Origin: Planctomycetota bacterium
GTDB lineage: Bacteria > Planctomycetota > Phycisphaerae > UBA1845 > UTPLA1
Assembly (NCBI GenBank): GCA_003576905.1
Contig: QEVG01000027.1
Location: forward strand, 1 to 64,000
Length of the DNA: 64,000 bases
Direction of reading: 5' to 3'
The notes beneath the pieces are model-generated. The model ran no database searches. It was not told the DNA's origin and saw nothing but the letters and a program-made list of their open reading frames with translations. Positions 41,836 to 47,408 of the stretch are shown here, piece by piece (within the stretch, counting starts at the first letter, position 1; the number at the start of each line of letters is the position of its first letter). The translations under genes were made by a program, and so were the position numbers.

Positions 41836-43029
41836 ATGAATCACCGGGAGCGGGTACTGGTCGCCATGAGCGGCGGCGTCGACAGCAGTGTCGCGGCCTG
41901 CATGCTACATGAGCAGGGCTACGACGTAGTCGGCGTCTTCATGCGGCTCGGCGCCCACGATCCCGAGCCACAGGCATGCGACGCAGCGCCCGTCGAAGGC
42001 GGCTCACCCGCCACAGCAACAAGCGCGACGCCGGACTCGAAGTCCGGTCGTATCCGAGGTCTCTCACTGCCCGTTCAGGCCGCGACACGGGCCGCGCCGG
42101 AGCGTCAGCGCGGCTGCTGCTCAGCCGCCGACGCCACGGACGCGCGCACCGTGGCCGGAAAGCTTGGCATCTCCTTCTACGCGCTTAACTTTGAAGAAGA
42201 CTTCGGCCGACTGAAGCAGTACTTCGCCGACGAGTACGCCGCGGCACGCACACCCAACCCCTGTGTCATGTGCAACCAGTGGCTGAAGTTCGGGCGGCTG
42301 ATCGACTACGCCGACGCCGTCGGTGCGGCGCGCGTGGCGACAGGCCACTACGCGCGGCTCGACACGAGCGGCCCGCGCCCCCGGCTCTTTCGCGCAACGG
42401 ACGCCGCGAAGGATCAGTCCTATGTGCTGTTCGGAATCGACCCGACGATCCTGCGGCGGACGCTTTTTCCGCTCGGGGAGATGTCCAAGGCCGACGTGCG
42501 GTCGGCCGCGAGAAGATTCGGCCTGGCCGTGCATGACAAGCCGGAATCGCAGGACATCTGTTTCGCGCCCGATCGAGATTATGCCCGCGTCGTGAAGAAG
42601 TATCGCCCCGACGCCTTCACTGGCGGGACGATCCGCCACGTGGACGGCCGCATCCTGGGACGACACGACGGACTGCCGAACTTCACCGTCGGCCAGCGCC
42701 GCGGCCTGCGCGTCGCCGTCGGAACGCCGGTGTATGTCTCGCAGCTCGACGCCGATACCGGCGACGTCGTGGTAGGCCCGCAGGAATCCGTGACGTCGCG
42801 CGAGGTGAAAGCCTCGCGGGTCAGTTGGCTGATTGATGCGCCGTCAACGGCCTTGCGGGCGCTCGCGCGCATCCGCTACAACCACGAGGCCGCGCCGGCC
42901 ATCGTGCATCCGCTTGGGCATGACCGCGTGCGGATCACTTTCGACGAGCCGCAGTGGGCCGTGACGCCGGGCCAGGCACTGGTCATCTACGACGGCGACG
43001 AAGTCCTCGGCGGGGGCTGGATCGACTGA
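41836..43029 (+). CDS. mnmA: tRNA-specific 2-thiouridylase
   Basis: MnmA thiolates U34 of tRNA-Glu, -Gln and -Lys. The 397-aa protein has the PP-loop SGGVDSS (12-18), the catalytic C143 (NPCVMCN) and the second C242 (SQDICF). The tRNA-binding region (KDQSYVLFGI) and C-terminal beta-barrel (NFTVGQRRGL) are intact. Compared with E. coli MnmA (C102, C199), both cysteines are shifted by about 41-43 residues. The shift is caused by an insertion at about residues 42-93, low in complexity and encoded partly by a palindrome at 42031-42047. The rest of the protein looks functional. Confidence 0.94.
   Translation: MNHRERVLVAMSGGVDSSVAACMLHEQGYDVVGVFMRLGAHDPEPQACDAAPVEGGSPATATSATPDSKSGRIRGLSLPVQAATRAAPERQRGCCSAADATDARTVAGKLGISFYALNFEEDFGRLKQYFADEYAAARTPNPCVMCNQWLKFGRLIDYADAVGAARVATGHYARLDTSGPRPRLFRATDAAKDQSYVLFGIDPTILRRTLFPLGEMSKADVRSAARRFGLAVHDKPESQDICFAPDRDYARVVKKYRPDAFTGGTIRHVDGRILGRHDGLPNFTVGQRRGLRVAVGTPVYVSQLDADTGDVVVGPQESVTSREVKASRVSWLIDAPSTALRALARIRYNHEAAPAIVHPLGHDRVRITFDEPQWAVTPGQALVIYDGDEVLGGGWID
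42031..42047. repeat. 17-bp palindrome inside the mnmA insertion
   Basis: CCGGACT and AGTCCGG flank CGA, making a perfect 7-bp inverted repeat. Its form resembles the CACCGGCA/TGCCGGTG hairpin at 31807. It encodes PDSKSG in the MnmA insertion and keeps the frame open. Confidence 0.5.
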
Positions 43030-43038
43030 CGCAAAAAG

Positions 43039-43578
43039 CTACTTCGACCGATGGGCGTGGTTCGGATACTTCCCCGCCGCGTGCAGCCGGCCGAGGTGGA
43101 TGTAGCTCTCATTCACTTCGCGGAAGTACAGCCGCTCCTCCTCCGTCGTGTCGCGAACGATCTTGCCCGGCACGCCCATGACGACCTTCCCGTCGGGCAC
43201 GATCGTCTTTGGCGGCAGCAGCGCCCCTGCGGCGATGAGACACCCTCGGCCAATCTCGCAATCGTCCAGCACGATCGCGCCGATCCCGATCAGCGTCCCG
43301 CTGCCGACGCGGCGGCAGTGCACAACGGCATGATGGCCGATGGAAACATCGTCATCGATATCCAGCGGCACGCCGCGATTGGTGTGGACGACCGTCCCGT
43401 CCTGGATGTTGCAGCGCTTTCCGATGCGGATGGCCGAGACATCTCCCCGGATCGTCACATGGTGCATCACGGTGCACTGGTCGCCGAGCGTCACCTCGCC
43501 GCCGACGTATGCCGTCGGGGCGATGTACACCTCGCGGCCGAGGATGACTCTGTCCGGCAGATCGGTGAATTCAAACAT
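43039..43578 (-). CDS. Gamma-carbonic anhydrase-like hexapeptide-repeat protein
   Basis: The 179-aa protein is a left-handed beta-helix of the YrdA/gamma-carbonic anhydrase family. It has the hexapeptide pattern (APTAYVGGEVTLGDQC) and RGDVSAIRIGKRCNIQDG. The three candidate metal histidines lie in VVHTNRG and IGHHAVVHC. Family members are active carbonic anhydrases in some organisms and of unknown activity in others. The ATG at 43578 starts the conserved region. It is convergent with mnmA (9-bp gap). The window therefore encodes both a beta and a gamma type. Confidence 0.9.
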   Translation of the reverse strand: MFEFTDLPDRVILGREVYIAPTAYVGGEVTLGDQCTVMHHVTIRGDVSAIRIGKRCNIQDGTVVHTNRGVPLDIDDDVSIGHHAVVHCRRVGSGTLIGIGAIVLDDCEIGRGCLIAAGALLPPKTIVPDGKVVMGVPGKIVRDTTEEERLYFREVNESYIHLGRLHAAGKYPNHAHRSK

Positions 43579-43805
43579 GGCGACGATTGAAACGGCGGAC
43601 GGGCAAATCGTCAAAACGCCGAATCCCCTGCCCTTTGCGCGACGCAAACGGGATCAATGAGTCAGGATCGAAGCCTGCGATCACTTGTCACGCTCCGGAG
43701 CGCTGGCGCGGATGCGTCGACCTGCTATGATCCGTGCGATTTCGTCGGGCCGTACTTTCACTGACGCTCGGCGGCAACATGCTCGTACTCGAATGGAGGC
43801 CTATC

Positions 43806-44156
43806 GTGGCAAAGAGAATCGACTGGTACTATCACCGCCCCGGCTGAAACTCCTGCGTGAAGTCGCAGGGGTTCCTTGCGAAGAAGAAGGCTCAGCCCGA
43901 GGTGATTCACAACGCCGGCAAGGCCCGGCTCGGTCGCGCCGACGCCCTGAAGCTCGCCCGCTCCGCGACGAAGGTCATCGCCGCGCGGGGCAAAGCCGTC
44001 GTCATGTTTGACATGACGAAAAACCCACCCACCGACGACGAACTCCTCGCCGCCCTCCTCGGGCCAACCGGCAACCTCCGCGCGCCGACGCTGCGCGTGG
44101 GAAGAACACTGCTGGTCGGCTTCAACCCCGATGCCTACGCATCAGCCCTGAAGTAG
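43806..44156 (+). CDS. Candidate selenoprotein: thioredoxin-fold (ArsC/glutaredoxin-like) protein with UxxC motif
   Basis: A GTG at 43806, with GGAGG 6 nt upstream, opens a frame reading MAKRIDWYYHRPG. TGA follows at 43845-43847, and the same frame continues NSCVKSQGFLAKKKAQ to a stop at 44156. Read through, this gives 116 aa, the normal size for the ArsC/Spx/glutaredoxin group. The TGA falls exactly on the first cysteine of an expected CxxC motif. A cis-Pro segment (LRAPTLRVG) later in the chain fits a thioredoxin fold. Directly after the TGA, 43848-43857 and 43864-43873 form a 10-bp stem (one G-U pair) with a 6-nt loop. The loop is closer to the UGA than the usual bacterial SECIS. The alternative is a pseudogene made by a Cys-to-stop change. 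No selA, selB, selC or selD is in the window. Confidence 0.6.
43848..43873 (+). promoter_or_regulatory. Stem-loop directly after the in-frame UGA (SECIS candidate)
   Basis: AACTCCTGCG pairs with CGCAGGGGTT around the loop TGAAGT. The loop contains G and U as in bacterial SECIS elements, but it starts 10 nt after the UGA, shorter than the usual spacing of about 16 nt or more. Confidence 0.4.
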
Positions 44157-44312
44157 CCGCCCCCCTATACGCGTACGGGTGGCACGGTCTGACTGGTACC
44201 CGCCGGCCAATGACGCCGCGCGATCCGACCGGGCATCTGGTACGCCCTCAATGACTCGCCTAACATCCCAGCCCGGTCTGAGCCACTGAAAACCGAAAAG
44301 GAGCACATTCAG

Positions 44313-44768
44313 ATGAAGCCTGAACAGGATTCCGCACGCGAGGTGGGATGCTACGCCTCGCTCATTCTGCGTCTGGCCATCGCCGCGCTCTTCTTCGCGG
44401 CGGCCTTCGCCAAGCTCAAGGGCGGCATGGAGACCATCAACGGCACCGTCGGCTACTTCAAGACGGCCTTCGCCGAGACCTGGCTCCCGATGTGGATGGT
44501 GACCATCCATGCCTACATCACCCCATTCGCCGAAGCCCTGATCGCCATCTGGCTGCCGCTCGGCTGGAAGCTCAAGTATGGCTGGCTCTTCGCCGGGCTC
44601 TTCACCATCAGCCTCGCCTTCGGCATGTCCATCCTCGGCAAGCACGACATCGCCTCCGGCAATTACAACTACGTCCTCATGTGCGCCCTCGGGCTGTACC
44701 TCTCCCGGTTCGACTGCCTGAGCATCGACGGCTGCCTCCGCGGGTGCGAGGGAATGAAGAAGCAGTAG
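44313..44768 (+). CDS. DoxX-like membrane protein
   Basis: The 151-aa protein has four predicted transmembrane helices (about 15-33, 60-82, 87-106 and 115-132). The first helix reads LRLAIAALFFAAAFAKLKGG, the pattern of DoxX/MauE-like families, followed by a loop with a conserved Thr/Tyr-Phe. A short Cys-containing tail closes it. AGGAG lies about 9 nt before the ATG. DoxX relatives are linked to redox processes. Its position 156 bp after the UxxC gene is suggestive only. Confidence 0.75.
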   Translation: MKPEQDSAREVGCYASLILRLAIAALFFAAAFAKLKGGMETINGTVGYFKTAFAETWLPMWMVTIHAYITPFAEALIAIWLPLGWKLKYGWLFAGLFTISLAFGMSILGKHDIASGNYNYVLMCALGLYLSRFDCLSIDGCLRGCEGMKKQ

Positions 44769-45107
44769 TTTCCTGTCACAGTCGAGCCTTCGGGCATCAT
44801 GGGCATGGGTGCCCCATCCCTTCAGGGATGGGCTCTTGGGAAAATCGGGAATCCGTCCCAGCAACTAGCTTAACTGTTCATCCGTGAGTTTCAGAAAAAT
44901 GCTGTTATACGCACGAAACGGAAATAGGTTTTGGGATAGCCTCTACTCGGATAAGATTATGCATGCCGCGAGACTGACCGGCGGCCGCTCCTGGTGGACC
45001 GCTCCATGTCCCGGCTGCTCAAAGGCGACTGGCCGCGATCCATCGAAGACCTGTAGCGGCCACCACCCTGCGAAGCAGCAAAACCTCTACGACAAGCGAT
45101 GCGGTCG
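44769..45107. other. Gap of 339 bp between DoxX-like and FG-GAP genes
   Basis: The gap holds the hairpin at 44813-44832. The rest is of mixed, partly lower GC and contains one plus-strand frame (from 44884) without motifs or start signal. I do not support a gene here. Confidence 0.4.
44813..44832. repeat. REP-like palindrome CCCATCCC / GGGATGGG
   Basis: CCCATCCCTTCAGGGATGGG is an inverted repeat of 8-9 bp around a 2-4 nt centre, 45 bp after the DoxX-like gene. No T-run follows. It may be a dispersed repeat or a 3'-end structure. Confidence 0.5.
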
Positions 45108-47408
45108 TCACGGCACAAGCAAATCAGCGAATTCCTGGACGTCCGCGCCGTCGATTTTGCCGTCGGGCTGCATGTCGCCCAAATGGATGTTGCATGCCGG
45201 ATAGCCAATTGTGTAAGCGACCGGATCAAGCAATGCCTCCACAAACACGGCAACGTCCTCGAAGTTTAGCGCGCAGTCACAGTTCATGTCACCAGGTGAT
45301 GAGCATGAATCCATCATGAGGTGATAGACGAAAGCACGGCCTTCATCGGTGTGGCCGTTATCGTAATTAAGCGATCCTACAATGACATCATCATAGCCGT
45401 CGTTGTTCACGTCTCCTGCGGTGGCCACTGAATTGCCAAAGTTTGCAAAGGCCTGATCGGCCTCGGCATCCCAATTGGGTACGGCCGACGTGCCCGCGAC
45501 AGAGCCATAATAGACCAGGGCCCGACCCTCGTCAGTCTGCCCGTTGTTGTAATCGCGGGCCCCAACAATCACGTCCCCGTAGCCGTCACCGTTCACGTCT
45601 CCTGCGGAAGCTACGGAGAATCCCAAGTGCGCATTCGCCTGGTTGATATCGGCAACCCAGTGGGACGTGGCCGACAATCCGGCGGTCGAGCCGTGAAAGA
45701 TGAAGGCCCGTCCCTCGTTTACGTGGCCATGGTCGTACAGATACGCTCCGACAATCACGTCACTGTATCCGTCGCCGTTTACGTCCCCAGCTGTTGACAC
45801 GGAGTAGCCGAACCAGGCGTTGGTCTGATCGCTTTCAGCGGTCCAGGCGGGCCCAGCTGATAAGCCTGATGCCGAGCCGTGATATACGAAGGCACGCCCT
45901 TCGTCGGTCTGTCCGTTGTCAAAGAATGGGGATCCTACGATCACGTCACTGTAACCGTCGCCATTCACGTCGCCCGCAGTGGCGACGGACCGGCCGATTT
46001 GGGCGATTGTTTGATCGCTCTCGGTGGTCCAGTCGGGCGCGGCCGGCAGCCCTGCGGCCGAGCCGTAATATACGAAGATCTTACCCTCACCAGTCTGGCC
46101 GTTATTAAAGTAGGGGGCTCCGACAATCACGTCGCTGTAGCCGTCGCCGTTCACGTCCCCGGCCGTGGCTACGGAGTAGCCGAATTGAGCTGACATCTGA
46201 TTGCCATAGGCGGTCCAATCAGGTGTGGCCGACAGCCCCGAGGCCGATCCATGATAGACAGAGGCCCGGCCTTCAGAAATCTCAGTATTACCGTAATCGG
46301 GGGCACCGACAATCACATCGCTGTAGCCGTCGCCGTTCACGTCGCCCGCCGTGGAAACCGATAGACCCCATCCGACATGCAACAAATTGCTCGCGGCGGT
46401 CCAATTGGGCGCGGCCGACAACCCTGCCACAGAACCGTGATAAACGAAGACTCGACCATCGCCTTGGGCGTTGTCAAAATATGGGGCCGCGACGATCACG
46501 TCACCAAAGCCGTCGCCATTCACGTCCCCGGCGGCGGATACACACGAGCCGAAGCGAGCATTTTCTTGATCGCTCTCGGCGGTCCAGGCCGGACTGGTGG
46601 CCAAGGGATCGATCGTGATCGGGTAGATCGCACCAGCATCACCGATCAAGAGGGCCAGGCAATTACCCTCTATCTCGAACCAAGCGGGCAGCGGAGTGCC
46701 GGCCGCATCTACGGCGTGCAATTCACCGAAATGAATCACCCGTTTTCCTCGTGGCGTGATGAAGTCTACAGATTGCCTATCGTCGTTCATGGTTGGCGCA
46801 ACGTCACCTGTCACGCTAAAATCCAGGCAAAGCGTAGGTATCCCCGAATCCAGTGGTGCATCAGAACAATTGAAAAAGGTAGCCTCGCGTTCGCTGCTTC
46901 GACGCGGAGGCACATCGATCGAAAACCCCTGTTCCAGCCCACGCGGGTCGTTGACGTACCACTCGACGATCTCGCCTCGCGCATATTCCACCCGATTGCC
47001 GTTCGTTGTGATGACCGCCGGCGCTACCGGATGCATTTCGCCCGCCCGGCCCCAAGAACTCGCTTGCAGGCCCCATTCCCACGCCGGAACCATGTTCTTT
47101 CGTTGCGTGCGAGGAAACACCCGTATTCCGTCGGCTGTGAAGCACGTCCGGAAGTTCTGCGCCCGGTTCGGCGCATGATAGGATTGTAATAGATCGGCCT
47201 GCGTCGCCCGCCCACATGTCACGTGGTACTCAATCTCCAGCAATTTCTCTTGTGCCGCCAGCCGCCAGTCCTCCCAGGTTCCCGCGGATCGCGCCGTTGC
47301 TGGCGCATCATCCAGCCGCCCATCTACCTGAGCATGGCACGCGGCGAAAGGGCGCAGCGCAGCGGCGAACACTGTTGCCAAAAGGAAGACGGCGGGATAG
47401 GAGCGCAT
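45108..47408 (-). CDS. Secreted FG-GAP repeat protein with double EF-hand tail
   Basis: The 766-aa protein has a signal peptide (MRSYPAVFLLATVFAAALRP in part: AVFLLATVFAAAL). A ~250-residue N-terminal region of unknown type follows. Seven tandem FG-GAP repeats of about 60 residues come next, each containing AGDVNGDGYSDVIVGA or a close variant. These integrin-alpha-like repeats form a beta-propeller and their DxNxDG loops bind calcium. The C-terminal ~60 residues start GDMNCDCALNFEDV and form a dockerin-like double EF-hand shared with the gene at 52223. The start at 47408 is chosen for the signal peptide; no ribosome site is seen. Confidence 0.87.
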   Translation of the reverse strand: MRSYPAVFLLATVFAAALRPFAACHAQVDGRLDDAPATARSAGTWEDWRLAAQEKLLEIEYHVTCGRATQADLLQSYHAPNRAQNFRTCFTADGIRVFPRTQRKNMVPAWEWGLQASSWGRAGEMHPVAPAVITTNGNRVEYARGEIVEWYVNDPRGLEQGFSIDVPPRRSSEREATFFNCSDAPLDSGIPTLCLDFSVTGDVAPTMNDDRQSVDFITPRGKRVIHFGELHAVDAAGTPLPAWFEIEGNCLALLIGDAGAIYPITIDPLATSPAWTAESDQENARFGSCVSAAGDVNGDGFGDVIVAAPYFDNAQGDGRVFVYHGSVAGLSAAPNWTAASNLLHVGWGLSVSTAGDVNGDGYSDVIVGAPDYGNTEISEGRASVYHGSASGLSATPDWTAYGNQMSAQFGYSVATAGDVNGDGYSDVIVGAPYFNNGQTGEGKIFVYYGSAAGLPAAPDWTTESDQTIAQIGRSVATAGDVNGDGYSDVIVGSPFFDNGQTDEGRAFVYHGSASGLSAGPAWTAESDQTNAWFGYSVSTAGDVNGDGYSDVIVGAYLYDHGHVNEGRAFIFHGSTAGLSATSHWVADINQANAHLGFSVASAGDVNGDGYGDVIVGARDYNNGQTDEGRALVYYGSVAGTSAVPNWDAEADQAFANFGNSVATAGDVNNDGYDDVIVGSLNYDNGHTDEGRAFVYHLMMDSCSSPGDMNCDCALNFEDVAVFVEALLDPVAYTIGYPACNIHLGDMQPDGKIDGADVQEFADLLVP

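Follow-up and report, generated by a model that had tools for sequence, protein, structure and literature searches.

A gene for a predicted ArsC-related UxxC selenoprotein (NF041106) and its candidate bacterial SECIS hairpin in a member of the Planctomycetota

The window analysed here (the whole stretch of 64,000 nucleotides) carries a short gene whose frame is interrupted by a TGA, which raises the questions of whether this codon is read as selenocysteine (Sec), which RNA hairpin would direct the insertion, and whether the gene is of a new type. Positions 43806-44156 of the forward strand form one frame, closed by TAG at 44154-44156, in which TGA 43845-43847 is the sole break. A ribosome binding site (GGAGG), a GTG start and a single in-frame TGA had been claimed in an earlier sequence-only reading, and all of them were found (Table 1). 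Read-through would give a product of 116 aa, reading VAKRIDWYYHRPG-U-NSC..., in which the Sec codon is codon 14. An in-frame ATG at 43779 is an alternative possible start. In the relatives, a start codon lies at the position of GTG 43806 or within a few codons of it, which lends this GTG weak support, since our script chose the start nearest to it.

Table 1 Features of the selenoprotein locus in the window.
Feature	Position	Strand	Details
ArsC-related selenoprotein gene (NF041106)	43806..44156	+	GTG start, Sec codon 14, TAG; 129.5 bits vs cut-off 85
GGAGG, candidate ribosome binding site	43795..43799	+	6 nt 5' of GTG 43806; sequence reading
TGA, predicted selenocysteine codon, first residue of U-N-S-C	43845..43847	+	TGA in 55/65 rows, TGC/TGT in 10/65
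TGC, Cys17, second residue of the UxxC pair	43854..43856	+	Cys in 64/65 rows, Ser in L006
Predicted bacterial SECIS hairpin	43863..43881	+	stem 43863-43870/43874-43881, 8 pairs; loop GUU 43871-43873
10-bp hairpin of the sequence-only reading	43848..43873	+	stem 43848-43857/43864-43873; loop of 6

The gene product matched the NCBIfam family NF041106 (ArsC_rel_Se_1, “ArsC family (seleno)protein”) over profile positions 1-107 of 107, with a score well over the cut-off. The redox pattern of this family, Sec or Cys first and Cys three residues on, is present, with TGA at codon 14 and TGC at codon 17. In profile searches of the same product, Pfam ArsC PF03960 (22.8 bits; gathering score 24), Pfam Glutaredoxin PF00462 (15.6 bits; gathering score 22.9) and Spx/MgsR TIGR01617 (19.4 bits; curated cut-off 75.05) stayed under their thresholds. 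The genome of the window (4.71 Mb in 65 contigs, 97.2% complete) contains a single match to the product. An AlphaFold model built with 19 sequences reached a pLDDT of 89.4 and a pTM of 0.81 at best, the five models spanning pLDDT values from 72.7 to 89.4. The PDB entries nearest to this model were YffB (1rw1), Spx and ArsC-related proteins (TM about 0.55, rmsd 6-8), in agreement with a sequence search against solved chains.

All 17 genomes of the taxonomic family carry the gene. In 16 of them the best copy contains a single TGA; that of G014 (L044) contains none and has TGC in the TGA column. As to decay of the gene, which the earlier reading had considered, no stop other than TGA lies inside the best copy in any of the 17 genomes. 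Homology continues through the TGA in both directions in 16 of the 17 genomes (the window's own counted) and also in 18 of 18 loci among the close relatives listed (at least 18), all of which have the TGA. Therefore, the TGA pattern is far above chance. The records listed for these close relatives are named Planctomycetota or Planctomycetes, Myxococcales, Deltaproteobacteria, Nitrospinae, Krumholzibacteriia or plain “bacterium”.

In a phylum sample of 392 genomes, 81 rows in 80 genomes scored over the NF041106 cut-off, 70 with one TGA and 11 stop-free. Thirty loci of these 81 rows were fetched and read (21 TGA, 9 Cys). Among the 11 genomes whose copies are all stop-free, ten were read as Cys (nine fetched loci and G014); for the copy of G284 and the stop-free one of G061, all that is known is the absence of an internal stop. 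Cys does occur at the TGA position in homologues, as the TGA column of the 65 aligned rows held TGA in 55 and TGC or TGT in 10. These row counts exclude L057, a second copy in G008 without the active site, and L001, a duplicate of L040, was not used. L057 (G008:C5:52399-52587) consists of the C-terminal part only (profile positions 45-107) and by eye is identical to the full copy L048 over that part, reflecting either a duplication or an assembly effect. The gene tree, with few columns and many forks open, needed seven Sec/Cys changes, at least three of which were forced by well-supported branches. Rows named Planctomycetota stood in this tree among those from the window's own phylum.

A sequencing error or a nonsense mutation in a Cys gene would explain the TGA as a fault or decay in what is normally CxxC. 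This explanation can draw on the Cys homologues and on the single base that separates TGC from TGA. It is opposed by TGA at the same codon across many assemblies, and the independence of these assemblies speaks against an error at 43845-43847 in particular. It could also be supposed that the true start is GTG 43857, after the TGA, which would then be the ordinary stop of a short leader; the list of open reading frames indeed has a 99-aa ORF starting there. The best-conserved residues argue otherwise. W7, Y9 and R11, each present in 65 of 65 rows, form a best-conserved stretch just 5' of the TGA and, together with C17, precede GTG 43857, and a protein begun at that GTG would lack both the active site and the initial strand of the predicted fold. 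The other best-conserved stretch is G89, L91, R92 and P94, of which the last three are each present in all 65 rows (Sec was entered as Cys in this alignment). We therefore rejected the downstream start, which is exceedingly improbable. A gene call that halts at the TGA would place the start after it and lose the active site, as in the 99-aa ORF.

The genome of the window encodes selA (C63:6458-7813, 521 bits), selB (C63:4497, 295.9 bits) and selD (C48:154742-155659, corresponding to L029:1501-2418, 359.9 bits), all over their cut-offs, as well as a tRNA-Sec with anticodon TCA (C17:72941-73034, 66 bits against a gathering score of 47). Among 14 control genomes, the cut-offs were passed by one for selA, two for selB, two for selD and five for tRNA-Sec. 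Therefore, the tRNA-Sec score alone is weak and the least specific of these signals. The selD of the window genome also contains an in-frame TGA, close to where the match begins (residue 11 of the matched stretch, ASCAGUAGK), and thus looks like a Sec form; the selD genes of the four relatives searched (G005, G014, G015 and G016) have one TGA each. Of 69 genomes with the TGA form, 64 had a selA over the cut-off, versus 3 of 11 with only stop-free copies (Fisher's exact test: p = 6e-6, with related sequences treated as independent). In this comparison G061, which has a TGA copy and a stop-free copy, was placed with the TGA genomes, and 16 TGA-form genomes were left out (G212, G241, G245, G186, G195, G252, G128, G301, G181, G375, G023, G333, G021, G292, G256 and G068). 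Completeness is below 90% in four of the five TGA-form genomes that lack selA and 91% in the fifth (G280). For tRNA 2-selenouridine synthase, no match was found in the window genome, and G014 showed one fragment under the cut-off. The Sec machinery, on whose presence the sequence-only reading had made its case depend, is thus there, and it also weighs against a sequencing error or nonsense mutation.

The legend of Fig. 2A in PMC13188914 gives rules for the bacterial SECIS: a loop of 3-9 nt, a stem of 4-16 bp, a G in the first two loop positions, a distance of 16-37 nt after the UGA and an energy of -7.5 kcal/mol or lower. The hairpin at 43863-43881 agrees with these published rules, with 8 bp, a GUU loop (G first) lying 23 nt after the UGA, and -10.4 kcal/mol; its stem starts 15 nt downstream of the TGA. 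Each of the 16 TGA genes in the taxonomic family preserves seven or all eight of the pairs, so that 127 of 128 cells (99.2%) are paired, compared with 33-56% in slid controls, and RNAalifold picked the helix unprompted from the same genes. Covariation is slight, with one double-changed pair (G-C to A-U, in two sequences) and five of eight pairs invariant; the observed share of paired cells was reached by 5 of 500 shuffles and the observed number of double-changed pairs by 144 of 500. Against synonymous recoding, based on codon use pooled from the taxonomic family's own genes, the number of pairs was high in the window gene (p = 0.018) and in the other 15 TGA genes (p = 0.002-0.026), and p values for the hairpin energy ranged from 0.002 to 0.090 across the 16 genes.

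The sequence-only reading had instead pointed to a 10-bp stem-loop directly after the TGA as the possible insertion signal. This stem-loop exists. In the window species it is the more stable of the two in isolation (-15.7 versus -10.4 kcal/mol), and in the window gene it stands out against synonymous recoding (p = 0.020). No such excess is seen, however, in the remaining 15 TGA genes (p = 0.08-0.65), and over the 16 TGA genes 71.3% of its cells are paired, as against 99.2% for the hairpin at 43863-43881. Its loop follows the UGA by 10 nt, outside the published range of 16-37 nt (PMC13188914), in line with the caveat in the earlier reading that the spacing is shorter than the bacterial SECIS consensus. 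Moreover, the Cys copy of G014 has no need of a SECIS, yet it retains 9 of the 10 pairs of this stem-loop. Because of this poor conservation and its persistence in a Cys copy, the 10-bp stem-loop is probably not the insertion signal, and we rejected it as the SECIS; that Sec is inserted through it is very improbable. On sequence grounds, the better-supported place for the predicted SECIS would be 43863-43881. The two hairpins overlap and are mutually exclusive.

The G014 copy can be regarded as a natural experiment, in which Cys has replaced Sec and the SECIS pairing has eroded, with selA and a TGA-containing selD retained in the genome. It has 5 of the 8 SECIS pairs left and no hairpin passing the rules. 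We infer that the pairs of the 10-bp stem-loop kept in this copy stem from the protein code, in which TGC (Cys17) faces TCG-CAG (Ser-Gln). Over the aligned rows, a contiguous-stem scan under the published rules (PMC13188914; -7.5 kcal/mol or lower) found a qualifying hairpin in 32 of 55 TGA rows and in 0 of 10 Cys rows (Fisher's exact test: p = 0.0009, with related sequences treated as independent). With the TGA shared by 55 rows, the Sec machinery present and the SECIS-type hairpin confined to TGA forms, a nonsense mutation or sequencing error was rejected, and we give it practically no chance.

The 23 TGA rows that failed the scan all lie outside the window's taxonomic family. They include three rows whose hairpin at the SECIS place falls just short of the threshold (L002, L061 and L082; -7.1 to -7.4 kcal/mol) and 17 rows with no hairpin there. 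Fourteen failing TGA members belong to other lineages (L004, L005, L007-L013, L016, L019, L079, L086 and L087). A simple scan of these 14 found no hairpin with G in the first two loop positions at -7.5 kcal/mol or lower, and RNAalifold found no helix common to them. Folding was more stable than in synonymous recodings at p 0.05 for eight of the 14, but also for 4 of the 10 Cys rows. These 14 members may use another SECIS type. The folding energy of the whole downstream stretch in the window gene was not unusual against synonymous recoding (z = -0.50, p = 0.283). Its mean z was -1.93 in the 16 TGA rows of the taxonomic family and -2.37 and -1.38 in two other TGA sets (n = 17 and 22). It is not a specific test, since the 10 Cys rows are low as well (mean z = -1.36; four with p under 0.05). 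A search of Rfam over 42000-46000 gave no match with E up to 1.

The computed frame, conservation, machinery, SECIS-type hairpin and predicted fold together make us highly confident that this is a functional NF041106 selenoprotein gene, in which the hairpin at 43863-43881 would recruit SelB for insertion of Sec at the UGA. The UxxC selenoprotein predicted in the sequence-only reading is supported by the Sec/Cys exchange at the TGA column, by the machinery and by the conserved SECIS-type hairpin. In the proposed mechanism, the ribosome would stop at UGA 43845-43847, the hairpin would bring in SelB with Sec-tRNA(Sec), and selenocysteine would be inserted, giving a 116-aa protein of ArsC/Spx fold with the active site U-N-S-C. 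Most likely the selenol would attack an oxidised substrate, such as a disulfide, and the adduct may then be resolved by Cys17. While halted at the UGA, the ribosome should occupy the first dozen downstream bases and would therefore be expected to melt the 10-bp stem-loop and free the SECIS. In the window species, the two exclusive hairpins could thus act as a switch, 43848-43873 hiding the SECIS until the ribosome at the UGA melts the 5' arm. We consider such a switch very improbable; if it were true, the SECIS would form only when needed.

Our best estimate is that the protein is a soluble selenol-thiol oxidoreductase with the ArsC/Spx fold. The six neighbours scanned encode AnmK, an HD-domain protein, a tRNA methyl transferase-domain protein (MnmA-like), a hexapeptide protein, a DoxX/MauE-like protein and an FG-GAP protein. 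The hexapeptide protein we take to be gamma-carbonic-anhydrase-like. When four of these neighbours were looked for in the fetched loci, the hexapeptide gene alone recurred. It lies on the reverse strand at 43042-43647 of the window, and a divergent hexapeptide gene is found upstream of the selenoprotein gene in 7 of the 17 taxonomic-family loci including the window's, within about 165 nt in five of these seven. A control region common to the two genes is possible. A scan of 43550-44350 for promoters and terminators found nothing. The relatives' flanks (about 1.5 kb on each side in the taxonomic-family loci, less downstream in two) contained no counterpart of the downstream DoxX/MauE-like gene, which therefore gives no functional clue.

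It is known that planctomycetes possess Sec-insertion genes and selenoproteins, as reported in PMC4807772. The table of prokaryotic selenoproteins in a 2026 review has the entry “Arsenate reductase-like protein, NF041106, UxxC” (PMC13188914). As its reference 61 for this entry, the review gives a 2008 survey of the Global Ocean Sampling selenoproteome, whose own table has “Arsenate reductase 2, cd03032, UxxC” (PMC2398784). The list in PMC9312934 also has an arsenate reductase-like UxxC family, and ArsC-like selenoproteins were listed already in PMC1794560. Since it is entered in these published tables, the family is already known, and the suggestion of a new selenoprotein did not hold: the gene is a sound added member of a catalogued selenoprotein family and not a new gene type.

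Compared with NF041106, the window protein is a full-length match with the same UxxC that the review's table gives for the family (PMC13188914), and no diagnostic difference from that entry was found. Arsenate reductase 2 in the table of PMC2398784 is likewise described as ArsC-like with UxxC. ArsC PF03960 belongs to the same superfamily, yet the window protein scores below its gathering score, and no arsenic gene occurs among the six scanned neighbour proteins. The Spx/YffB proteins (PDB 1rw1, 3l78 and 6ghb) are the nearest solved chains by both sequence and fold, but they share about 20% identity with the window protein, superpose at the TM and rmsd given above, and the Spx/MgsR profile TIGR01617 was not reached. 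The finding leaves knowledge of selenoprotein families unchanged, and it puts a small selenium redox protein in the lineage of the window.
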